Source: a virus
IMG/VR virus record: IMGVR_UViG_3300011244_000002
Span: 1-45,406 of that record
Strand: one strand, 5' to 3'
Length of the DNA: 45,406 nt
Shown here: in pieces, positions 4,232 through 43,791 of the stretch
Numbering within the stretch: position 1 is the stretch's first letter
How the letters are laid out: each line of letters begins with the position of its first letter
The notes under the pieces: generated by a model
What the model was told of the DNA's origin: nothing
What the model saw: only the letters and a program-made list of their open reading frames with translations
Databases searched by the model: none
Position numbers and translations under genes: made by a program

Positions 4232-4731
4232 CCCCGGCGACCCAACCGGCCGCCGGGGCTGTCGCGTACAAGTCGCGGCTCGCGTGTCGAACGCGAATAC
4301 GGCGTGTTAGAGCCGCACGTCGAAGGACGCCGCGATATAAGGGCGAGCGTGCCGCGGCTTCATGGCAGGCGCGGGCACCCTCACGTTACGGAGGGGGTCC
4401 ATGAACTCGCTCGCCCAAAGGGACGCCAGCCGGTTAAGGCTGACGGCCCGGTGCTCGATTCACCCGCCATGGCTAGAGTCGGTGTCACACCGGCCCAGGC
4501 GAATCGAGCCCAAAGGGACACCAGCCGGTTAGGACTGGCGGCCCTGAAACAAAGGCGAGTGGCCCTGCCTTATTCGTCGTATTCGGCAGGCGCCCTCTCG
4601 CAAGAGGGACGCAGCTAAGTCACTCGCCCAAGCCAGCAGCGCCCAGTCACGGACGCCGCCGGCATAAGGCCCCGCCGGGGGAGCGGGGCTGACACGCGCA
4701 ACCGACGCCGGGGAGGGGTAGCCGGCGGTTG
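4232..4731. ncRNA. Candidate large structured RNA with repeated modules
   Basis: About 500 nt without a convincing gene, in a genome where most neighbours overlap. Four long-range stems have unrelated arm sequences: 4275-4281/4310-4316, 4341-4349/4408-4416 (9 bp), 4454-4461/4501-4508 and 4554-4561/4621-4628. Five copies of a GGACGCC...TAAGG motif occur at 4325-4342, 4421-4439, 4516-4533, 4607-4619 and 4651-4669. Copies are preceded by a small hairpin of changing length, e.g. CCC-AAA-GGG against CCCTCT-CGCA-AGAGGG. Strong terminal hairpins lie at 4232-4258, 4669-4689 and 4699-4731. A-rich loops hint at the plus strand, but the strand is unproven. Size and phage setting recall ROOL or GOLLD RNAs, but I see no sequence match. 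Confidence 0.62.
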
Positions 4732-7910: not shown

Positions 7911-7973
7911 CGCGACCTCTTATAAGAATCCCGAGAACTTCCCACGCCTCCGCACCCGCCCGCGCACTACGCT

Positions 7974-8186
7974 TCACCCGGCGGCGGCGGACTCGCGGCG
8001 AGTGCCGTTGCGGCGCTGTTCCATCCGGCGCAGCGCCTCGGCCTTTACCTCTGGCGAAGCGATGTCCATCAGCTCGACAAGGAACTCCGGCAAGGCCTGC
8101 ATCTTCATCCCCATGCCGTCAGCCTTACGCTTCATCCGCGAGTGCGTCCGGGTGTTCACCGCGATGTTTGTTCGTTCGTCCTTCAT
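7974..8186 (-). CDS. Small ribbon-helix-helix-like regulator
   Basis: 70 residues: RTNIAVNTRTHSRMKRKADG, a MKMQALPEFLVELMDIA helix and a basic tail, which fits a short beta strand plus two helices (RHH). RHH proteins bind direct repeats as dimers of dimers. Four phased repeats lie immediately upstream (8213-8283), so it may control its own divergent promoter region. A GTG at 8198 preceded by AGGA is an alternative start. Confidence 0.6.
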   Translation of the reverse strand: MKDERTNIAVNTRTHSRMKRKADGMGMKMQALPEFLVELMDIASPEVKAEALRRMEQRRNGTRRESAAAG

Positions 8187-8212
8187 GACTTGTTCCACTC
8201 ATCCTACGGTGA

Positions 8213-8283
8213 GAAAACACGATTGCAACTGAAGAAAACACGAGTCTCCACTAGAAAACACGTAACCCCATTCGTCAAAACAT
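8213..8283. repeat. Phased direct repeats GAAAACACG, probable operator array
   Basis: GAAAACACG occurs exactly at 8213-8221, 8234-8242 and 8254-8262, with a weaker copy CAAAACATG at 8275-8283. The start-to-start steps are 21, 20 and 21 bp, i.e. two helical turns, so proteins bound there would sit on one face of the DNA. The array fills the divergent gap between two small RHH-like genes and overlaps the plus-strand start codon. Confidence 0.72.
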
Positions 8284-40747: not shown

Positions 40748-40960
40748 TCACGCGACCCGCGAGGTGAAGGCGGCAGGGTATCCGTTGGCCAGGATCTTTG
40801 CCGTTCCCCGCTTTACTAGGCGCTTCGCCTTCATGTGGTTTACACCGAGGCGCTGCCCGATTCGGCGGTAGGACATGGCGTCGCTGTAACGGAGAGCGCA
40901 CGCCTCCACCTCGCTCGGGTCGAGCCCGTGCAGTGGGTTGTCTTGTCGTTCGTTGTTCAA
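40748..40960 (-). CDS. Sigma-region-4-like small HTH protein
   Basis: 70 residues from TTG 40960 (no clear ribosome site; true start uncertain). PSEVEACALRYSDAMSYRRI followed by GQRLGVNHMKAKRLVKRG is a sigma region 4 or LuxR-like HTH. It begins just after a terminator-like hairpin that closes the previous gene. Confidence 0.58.
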   Translation of the reverse strand: MNNERQDNPLHGLDPSEVEACALRYSDAMSYRRIGQRLGVNHMKAKRLVKRGTAKILANGYPAAFTSRVA

Positions 40961-40963
40961 GGG

Positions 40964-40994
40964 AAAAGCGAGCCTCTCACTTATAGGTGAGAGG
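40964..40994 (-). terminator. Terminator-like hairpin after the 40981 gene
   Basis: CCTCTCAC (40973-40980) and GTGAGAGG (40987-40994) pair perfectly around a 6-nt loop that contains the TAA stop; on the minus strand a short T-run (TTTT, 40964-40967) follows after six bases. It could be an intrinsic terminator or attenuator. Confidence 0.55.
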
Positions 40995-41649
40995 GTGTAA
41001 CACTTTCGCGCATCCTCCGCAGTTCTGCCTTGCGGCAACGCGGGCAAAACCTTTCCCCAACACGCCTTAGCTCATTGCACTTACCGTCGTGCCCCTGGCA
41101 ACCGGGAAGTGTGGCGGGCGGCTTGGGGATCCGCTCGCCGTCCTTGTCGCGGGGCGGCTTCACCAGCCGCAGGCTCGCCGACATGGCTTCGCGTGCCGAC
41201 ATTCGCACTTCGCGGGGCGGGTAGGACGCCCATCGGTCTGGATCCGGAACGTCGTCGTCGTCCGGATCCGGCCGGGGAAGGAACCAGTCCGGGGCCCCGG
41301 CGATCATCGAAGGATCCTGGGCACTGAACCAGAGCATGGCGTAGGTGAACAGGCCCAGCAGCGTCGCGGGACGGTCGTACTCGTCTGCGGGGATCCCTTT
41401 TGCGGCTGCCAGGACGCGGACAAGGTTGTCCATCTTCGCCCCGGCGCTGACGGCGTGGGCATGGTCGTAGCTGAATTGGATGTCGTCGGGGAGGTCTTCG
41501 GGGTTGACCTTGGCGGTCTGGATCCGGACTGGCTGCTCACCCACCGCGGAGGGGATCCCTCCATCCCCCGGATTCAGCCGGCGGTTCTCGGCTTGGGCGG
41601 CGTCCCGGAGCCGGTCTTTCCGCCGGCGCTTCGTCGCGGTGGTTGGCAT
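40981..41649 (-). CDS. Hypothetical protein with C-terminal zinc motif
   Basis: 222 residues: basic N-terminus (TKRRRKDRLRDAAQAENRRL), a helical middle (DNLVRVLAAAKGIPADEYDR, LGLFTYAMLWFSAQDPS), an acidic Pro/Asp-rich linker and a C-terminal metal site (CQGHDGKC ... FCPRCRKAELRRM). Probably nucleic-acid binding. Upstream a minus-strand TAGAAT with weak TTCGCG 18 bp away may be its promoter. Confidence 0.66.
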   Translation of the reverse strand: MPTTATKRRRKDRLRDAAQAENRRLNPGDGGIPSAVGEQPVRIQTAKVNPEDLPDDIQFSYDHAHAVSAGAKMDNLVRVLAAAKGIPADEYDRPATLLGLFTYAMLWFSAQDPSMIAGAPDWFLPRPDPDDDDVPDPDRWASYPPREVRMSAREAMSASLRLVKPPRDKDGERIPKPPATLPGCQGHDGKCNELRRVGERFCPRCRKAELRRMRESVTPSHL

Positions 41650-41693
41650 GGTGCCGGGATTCTATCACAACCTGCGGTATGGCGCGAATTTGA

Positions 41694-41723
41694 TTGCACT
41701 ATTCGCAGTGGAGACGCTACAAT
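41694..41723 (+). promoter_or_regulatory. Promoter of the 41730-41820 small RNA
   Basis: -35 TTGCAC (41694-41699), an 18-bp spacer and -10 TACAAT (41718-41723). The predicted start, about 41730, coincides with the first base of the segment that pairs with the terminator loop. Confidence 0.7.
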
Positions 41724-41729
41724 CCCGGC

Positions 41730-41820
41730 AGAGTTCCCGGTGCCCGATAATTTCGCAAACATCGCCGCCGCCCTCGTGAGCCCGAAACCCGGGAACTCTC
41801 TCACGAACGGCGGTTTTTTT
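41730..41820 (+). ncRNA. Candidate 91-nt small RNA with loop-pairing 5' end
   Basis: Bounded by a sigma-70-type promoter and a strong intrinsic terminator, with no reading frame of note. The 5' end AGAGTTCCCGG (41730-41740) is perfectly complementary (11 bp) to CCGGGAACTCT (41789-41799) in the loop of the terminator hairpin, so it can form a pseudoknot or an alternative fold. It lies opposite to and upstream of the minus-strand gene at 40981. Seen: promoter, pairing and terminator; inferred: transcription and regulatory role. Confidence 0.72.
41768..41820 (+). terminator. Intrinsic terminator with seven T
   Basis: CCGCC (41768-41772) and TCGTGAG (41774-41780) pair with CTCACGA (41800-41806) and GGCGG (41809-41813) around a 19-nt loop, followed directly by seven T (41814-41820). 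Confidence 0.82.
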
Positions 41821-41856
41821 GCGCCCACCATTTCGGGTTCTCATTACCAAACGCTC

Positions 41857-42102
41857 TCACCCAGGAACAGCAAAGAGCGAGGTCGTCTGAAAAGCGCCCC
41901 CCGAAGCGTCCGGCTGCCGTGTGGCGGTCGCGACGTGGAGCAGGTTATGACCACCGATGCCGTAGCCGGGGTTAACGCGAGTCTGAAGCCCTATCAGCAC
42001 TACCTGGGGAAAAACCGGTGTCGCGTCCCACTGCGCCCGGTCCTCATCCACAGCTTGAAGACCTGTGCTCGGGTAGATGGTTGAAGTTCTCAGCAGACTC
42101 AT
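41857..42102 (-). CDS. Possible hypothetical protein
   Basis: 81 residues with ordinary composition (DEDRAQWDATPVFPQVVLIG, GYGIGGHNLLHVATATRQ). The ATG has GAGGA directly adjacent, too close to be ideal. Not recognised; may be real because the segment is otherwise empty. No other feature is seen in 41821-42160. Confidence 0.42.
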   Translation of the reverse strand: MSLLRTSTIYPSTGLQAVDEDRAQWDATPVFPQVVLIGLQTRVNPGYGIGGHNLLHVATATRQPDASGGAFQTTSLFAVPG

Positions 42103-42160
42103 TCCTCATCGCAGACAGGGCAAGACCCTGAAGATGAGGCATAGGGGCATCGGTGCGTAC

Positions 42161-42226
42161 CTACCTCCGCTCCCCCAGCAGCCGCTCCACCGCATCCATC
42201 GGCGTGGCGCCAAGCCCGACCCGCAT
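42161..42226 (-). CDS. Possible 21-aa peptide
   Basis: A 21-codon frame with an ideal AGGAG 7 nt before its ATG, encoding GLGATPMDAVERLLGERR at its end. Its DNA shares a CCAAGCCCGACCCG stretch with the 3' part of the next gene upstream (about 42329), which hints at a small duplication. Too short for certainty. Confidence 0.35.
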   Translation of the reverse strand: MRVGLGATPMDAVERLLGERR

Positions 42227-42308
42227 CGCTGCGCTCCTACCTCAAGCCCTCCAGCGTCCGCTGCTTTGGTTCGCCCTTGCGATGTGGCGCGCAACGATCC
42301 GGTGAAAC

Positions 42309-42539
42309 CTACTCGCAGGCATCGTAACCGTCCAAGCCCGACCCGACAGTTACCTCCGCCGCTCCCCCGGAAAGCGCCACCGCGTGCGTCTCCCGCAGCC
42401 GCCGCACCGCGTCTGCCTCCTGCTCCCGCAGGGTGTCCAGGTGCTTGCCGTCCTCGGGCCAGCGACCGCAACGCATGACCACGGCGATGGTGGCCCGGAT
42501 GTCCTCCAGCTCGGCGATGATGCTGTCGGTGATGGTCAT
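42309..42539 (-). CDS. Hypothetical helical protein
   Basis: 76 residues: an amphipathic start (TDSIIAELEDIRATIAVVM) and a helical middle (LDTLREQEADAVRRLRETHA). AAGGA lies 6 nt before the ATG. Function unknown. Confidence 0.66.
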   Translation of the reverse strand: MTITDSIIAELEDIRATIAVVMRCGRWPEDGKHLDTLREQEADAVRRLRETHAVALSGGAAEVTVGSGLDGYDACE

Positions 42540-43422: not shown

Positions 43423-43480
43423 CTGTCTGTCCTCTCCGTCGTCCCGGACGGCTCGGCTCAACCGTTTGGTTGATGGAGTA

Positions 43481-43508
43481 ATAGTACCCGATCCAGAGCC
43501 GTTGTCAA
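43481..43508 (-). promoter_or_regulatory. Leftward promoter
   Basis: On the minus strand: -35 TTGACA (43508-43503), 16-bp spacer, -10 TACTAT (43486-43481). A palindrome AAGATAATCTT (43507-43517) touches the -35 and may be an operator. Confidence 0.72.
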
Positions 43509-43555
43509 GATAATCTTACCACTAATTATTCACCGTCAGATTTGGCAAGAAAAGC

Positions 43556-43584
43556 TTGACAATGACACGGGTTACGGCAATAAT
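43556..43584 (+). promoter_or_regulatory. Rightward promoter for a leaderless mRNA
   Basis: -35 TTGACA (43556-43561), 17-bp spacer, -10 AATAAT (43579-43584). The expected start, 7 bp on, is the A of the next ATG (43591). The -35 boxes of this and the leftward promoter form an inverted repeat TTGTCAAG/CTTGACAA. Confidence 0.72.
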
Positions 43585-43590
43585 AATGGC

Positions 43591-43791
43591 ATGACCACGA
43601 AGAAAAAGCGGACTGGCCAGGTGCCCCGAAAGCGTGCCGACGGAACGGGTGAGGTTACAAAGTACCTGCGGATGCCGATGCTCATGGCCGATGCCGTCGA
43701 GGTCTACCAGCAGCGGGAGATGATGAGCACCGATGCGCAGGCGATCCGGGACTTAATCAAGCGGGCACTCAAGACGGAGGGGCTGCTGTGA
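43591..43791 (+). CDS. Small RHH-like regulator, probably leaderless
   Basis: 66 residues: basic start (TTKKKRTGQVPRKRADGTGE), strand VTKYLRMPMLMADAVEVYQQ and helix AQAIRDLIKRALKTEG, a CopG/ribbon-helix-helix-like pattern. No ribosome site precedes the ATG. Divergent from the leftward operon, with shared promoter DNA and a palindrome, it may control both promoters as an early switch. Confidence 0.68.
   Translation: MTTKKKRTGQVPRKRADGTGEVTKYLRMPMLMADAVEVYQQREMMSTDAQAIRDLIKRALKTEGLL

Follow-up and report, generated by a model that had tools for sequence, protein, structure and literature searches.

A candidate terminated small RNA of a planctomycete-type phage with a 5' end complementary to its own terminator loop

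INTRODUCTION

Known regulatory RNAs of phages include antisense, sponge and immunity regulators, among them the lambda OOP RNA, which is antisense to the cII mRNA (PMC12197685). Few small RNAs from phages of Planctomycetota appear to have been described in the literature. Here we analyze a viral sequence of 45,406 nucleotides (IMG/VR record IMGVR_UViG_3300011244_000002, hereafter the window), in which a 91-nt small RNA is predicted on the plus strand at positions 41730-41820. Like OOP, the candidate would be a short phage transcript that runs from a putative promoter of its own to an intrinsic terminator, lies in a regulatory region and opposes a neighbouring operon. Unlike OOP, it is located in a gap between genes, would be antisense only to possible read-through transcripts and contains a putative helix between its 5' end and its terminator loop; an OOP-type overlap with a coding mRNA was not found at 41730-41820.

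The lambda 6S late leader (pR'-tR') runs into the late genes. It shares with our candidate the layout of a short phage promoter-to-terminator transcript with a sigma-region-4/Q-like gene nearby (in our window a weak phrog_79 match). The late genes of the window are however encoded on the other strand, with the terminase, portal, major head and tape-measure/tail genes all found on the minus strand between 14 and 31 kb, rather than downstream on the strand of the RNA. Terminator loops are contact sites in the Bacillus subtilis type I antitoxin RNAs SR4 and SR5 (PMC7430163), and the terminator loop of our candidate may likewise serve as an RNA contact site. The trans partners of SR4 and SR5 are overlapping toxin mRNAs, whereas the loop partner in the candidate is its own 5' end, and no toxin open reading frame is seen at its locus.

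RESULTS AND DISCUSSION

The initial annotation had proposed a promoter, a start at 41730 and a strong terminator with a T7 run that together define a 91-nt RNA, and we recover each of these elements at its coordinates. The putative promoter (41694-41723, plus strand) is composed of a -35-like hexamer, TTGCAC (41694-41699, 3/6 matches), and a -10 box, TACAAT (41718-41723), separated by an 18-nt spacer. The spacing from the -10 box places the predicted start at a purine 7 nt downstream of this box, A41730, and the T-run defines the 3' end. The promoter thus combines a good -10 box and a duplicated start-site element with a poor -35 box, and it is not listed by a standard, stricter sigma-70 promoter scan. 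The -10 box and start-site element TACAATCCCGGCA (41718-41730) is an exact copy of the pattern TANAATCCCGGCA, which occurs at only two sites. The second site, TAGAATCCCGGCA, is found on the minus strand (41652-41664), where it immediately precedes ATG 41649, and a 13-nt inverted repeat (92% complementary) spans both divergent start sites. Independent support for the promoter comes from TANAAT, which is present in only six copies in the 45-kb window, counting both strands; two of these are arranged divergently here, 54 bp apart, and each is followed by CCCGGCA. This arrangement makes a control element shared by both transcripts likely. From the minus-strand -10 copy, transcription would begin ∼3 nt ahead of ATG 41649, and an almost leaderless mRNA is hence predicted.

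The terminator, located by folding and a terminator scan, is a G+C-rich hairpin of 13 pairs with one internal loop (41765-41813) and a terminal loop of 19 nt (41781-41799), followed by a T7 run (41814-41820), of which the window has only one other. It belongs to a strong class that appears with a frequency of 0.075 per shuffled window. The proposed complementarity between the first 11 nt and the terminator loop proved to be exact: the 5' arm AGAGTTCCCGG (RNA nt 1-11, 41730-41740) is the complement of CCGGGAACTCT (nt 60-70, 41789-41799), which lies in the loop and abuts the 3' arm of the stem. We refer to this putative pairing as the S1 helix. Its arms form an exact 11-nt inverted repeat, bounded precisely by the predicted +1 at one end and by the terminator stem at the other. 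Such a repeat is by itself unremarkable, because ∼1.7 cases are expected per shuffled window; the window contains 11-nt inverted repeats within 80 nt at four places (seven overlapping 11-mers). The complementarity between loop and upstream sequence is remarkable, since among 480 terminator-like sites from shuffled windows such pairing never exceeds 9 nt, and only 4 of 20,000 dinucleotide-shuffled versions of the 35 nt at the 5' end reached 11 pairs or more (about 2e-4). The sequence anatomy of a self-contained, terminated RNA gene with predicted pairing of 5' end and terminator loop is thus well supported.

We calculated a minimum free energy of -32.1 kcal/mol for the 91-nt RNA, compared with a shuffle mean of -24.4 kcal/mol (z is -2.47; 4 of 200 shuffles fold equally well). 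When energies are followed by transcript length, the minimum for lengths of 70-80 nt is the S1 fold (-24.3 kcal/mol); at 84 nt (-31.2 kcal/mol) it is replaced by the terminator fold, which is also the nested minimum of the full RNA. The S1 duplex alone amounts to -19.8 kcal/mol, as does the terminator stem minus its inner pairs, and a shorter S1 (nt 1-6 with 65-70) fits the nested minimum fold with no pairs broken. Pseudoknot formation carries a usual energy penalty, and by our own sum the S1 helix together with the terminator stem is estimated to lie close to the nested minimum when this penalty is included. Of the two folds originally suggested, a pseudoknot or an antiterminated alternative, the pseudoknot and a transient alternative are both energetically possible. 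The term antiterminated is weak, because S1 uses the loop rather than the stem arms and so need not block termination, and because the full RNA prefers the terminator fold; an antiterminator in the strict sense is rejected, as S1 leaves the stem arms free.

The RNA is located in a 660-nt gap (41650-42309) that shows only weak codon-position G+C bias and lacks a typical coding signal. Codon-position G+C is flat over 41660-41839, although a long plus-strand frame crosses this stretch, and neither the list of open reading frames nor codon-position G+C reveals a credible minus-strand gene overlapping 41730-41820. The initial annotation placed the RNA next to a minus-strand regulator region. This description fits the second gene on that side (40748-41047), a possible regulator with a sigma-70 region-4-like helix-turn-helix (PF04545, E 1.1e-5; phrog_3512, E 1.9e-4), but not the adjacent divergent gene (40981-41649, 222 aa, Cys-containing C terminus), which has no family match. 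A perfect 8-bp inverted repeat, CCTCTCAC/GTGAGAGG (40973-40994), is found at the junction of these two genes and has a tail resembling that of a terminator on the minus strand. On the other side, an A+T-rich divergent region (43461-43591) has good TTGACA promoters on both strands and is flanked by a small, weakly phage-repressor-like gene (43591-43791; phrog_4738, E 0.0011), and probably represents a genetic switch. Leftward read-through from this region at 43.46-43.59 kb would be antisense to the RNA.

Relatives of the terminase are found in three metagenome-assembled genomes (MAGs; Pirellulaceae, Planctomicrobium and Phycisphaerae) and in 12 viral contigs, and the planctomycete MAGs suggest that the phage host is probably a member of the Planctomycetota. 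The RNA itself has no homologue in viral contigs, genome contigs, phages or plasmids, nor in about 390 genomes of the same phylum as a Planctomycetota MAG, where the DNA matches are short, G+C-rich and at chance level. No relative of the RNA or of its flanking genes is present in 12 related phage contigs; judged by terminase, the closest relative (56% identity) is a fragment and stops short of the RNA region. The neighbouring proteins have no credible relatives in the collections searched, and the best match of the 40981-41649 protein in other genomes is spurious, as it overlaps a DnaJ-like gene. The initial annotation had called for a search for the same pairing pattern in related phages. The exact two-arm pattern is absent from viral contigs, and the loop-stem pattern CCGGGAACTCTNTCACGA is matched in six contigs, with the second arm in 0/6. 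A terminator scan of related phages returned an array of palindromic GGGGAATTCCCC repeats and a long near-perfect hairpin, neither of which corresponds to this RNA. In one related phage contig (L022, G007), a palindromic GCGGGGAATTCCCCGC repeat array (4330-4520) lies inside an open reading frame. No Rfam family reaches its gathering score in the window, with sub-threshold snoRNA-like matches all outside the RNA, and a tRNA search of the window was negative. The RNA is so far known from only one phage.

Target prediction for the loop, also proposed at the outset, yielded no significant target. The best site (7925-7947) lies on the minus strand in the 5' UTR of the gene that begins with ATG 7910, where complementarity to the terminator loop would give a duplex of -30.7 kcal/mol upstream of AGAGG and the start codon; 6% of shuffled seeds perform equally well (p about 0.06), and we rejected this weak candidate as not significant. 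The recurrence of CTCTCAC is likewise at chance level. The regulatory or decoy role suggested at the outset is unproven, as the searches returned neither a homologue nor a significant target.

Divergent promoters can yield short terminated RNAs. The transcript could accordingly be a functionless by-product of the divergent promoter, or the terminator could shield the region with no function of the RNA itself, an unlikely explanation with which the singleton status of the RNA and the target search are consistent; the precise 11-bp pairing of its 5' end with the terminator loop is in turn unlikely to arise by chance.

We also consider it unlikely that the repeats represent operator DNA rather than RNA structure, with CCCGG/TTCCCGG sites at the divergent promoters bound by a phage regulator and the complementarity a by-product of inverted operator copies. 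The 13-nt inverted repeat over both start sites and a second, 11-nt inverted repeat with CCGG cores are in line with this view. Read on its other strand, the 7925-7947 site in front of the 7910 gene is also similar to the start-site element through a gapped relative, ATCCCGAGAACTTCCC; this pattern was picked after the fact, and it suits an operator equally well. However, the exact limits of the 11-nt repeat at the +1 and the terminator stem are predicted by RNA pairing and not by operators, and one arm is found deep inside the terminator loop.

A leader attenuator, with the RNA serving as 5' leader to a rightward gene and conditional termination at 41820, is quite unlikely: an open plus-strand frame does start at ATG 41947 after GGAGCAGG and extends to 42084 with weak codon-position G+C bias, and the RNA has two alternative folds, but the encoded peptide matches no family and resembles frames of other sizes only weakly, a minus-strand frame (41857-42102) overlaps it and competes as a gene, and the 5' pairing leaves the terminator stem arms unused.

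We tentatively favor, as a possible though less than probable reading, a base-pairing small RNA of a planctomycete-type phage with a self-masked loop, encoded at a divergent promoter pair. The two promoters would share the element TA(C/G)AATCCCGGCA, the rightward one driving a non-coding RNA of ∼91 nt that ends at the strong intrinsic terminator and the leftward one the 40981-41649 operon, and one protein acting on the shared element could control both transcripts. During synthesis, the RNA 5' end (nt 1-11) would pair first with nt 60-70; the terminator stem would form next, with S1 either displaced or retained as a pseudoknot. The loop GGGAACUCUCUC may act as the base-pairing seed, masked by the 5' end, which would itself be shielded until a target or a protein opens the loop. 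Likely targets would be leftward phage transcripts or other mRNAs, and cis read-through from 42-45 kb would be perfectly complementary to the RNA. What the sequence shows are the elements, their rarity and the predicted energies; transcription, folding in vivo, targets and regulation are inferred. We regard as improbable the more elaborate version of an RNA switch, in which the 5' end invades the terminator loop and a single pseudoknot couples termination and stability to exposure of the seed, under joint regulation with the divergent leaderless operon. The candidate, a terminated phage small RNA, is ordinary in kind and neat in its details, the pairing of the 5' end with the terminator loop and a shared divergent promoter element, and it is unproven as a whole. 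Should the pairing prove real, it would provide a compact example of an RNA 5' end and a terminator loop regulating each other.

Two further features of the window were noted. Three copies of AGAAAACACG(A/T), spaced by 20-21 nt, precede a small gene on the minus strand (7980-8186); these iteron-like repeats (8212-8263) are possibly an operator or a replication origin. A 550-aa phage protein (33157-34809) that contains a GDSL lipase/acylhydrolase-like domain is encoded adjoining the packaging genes.
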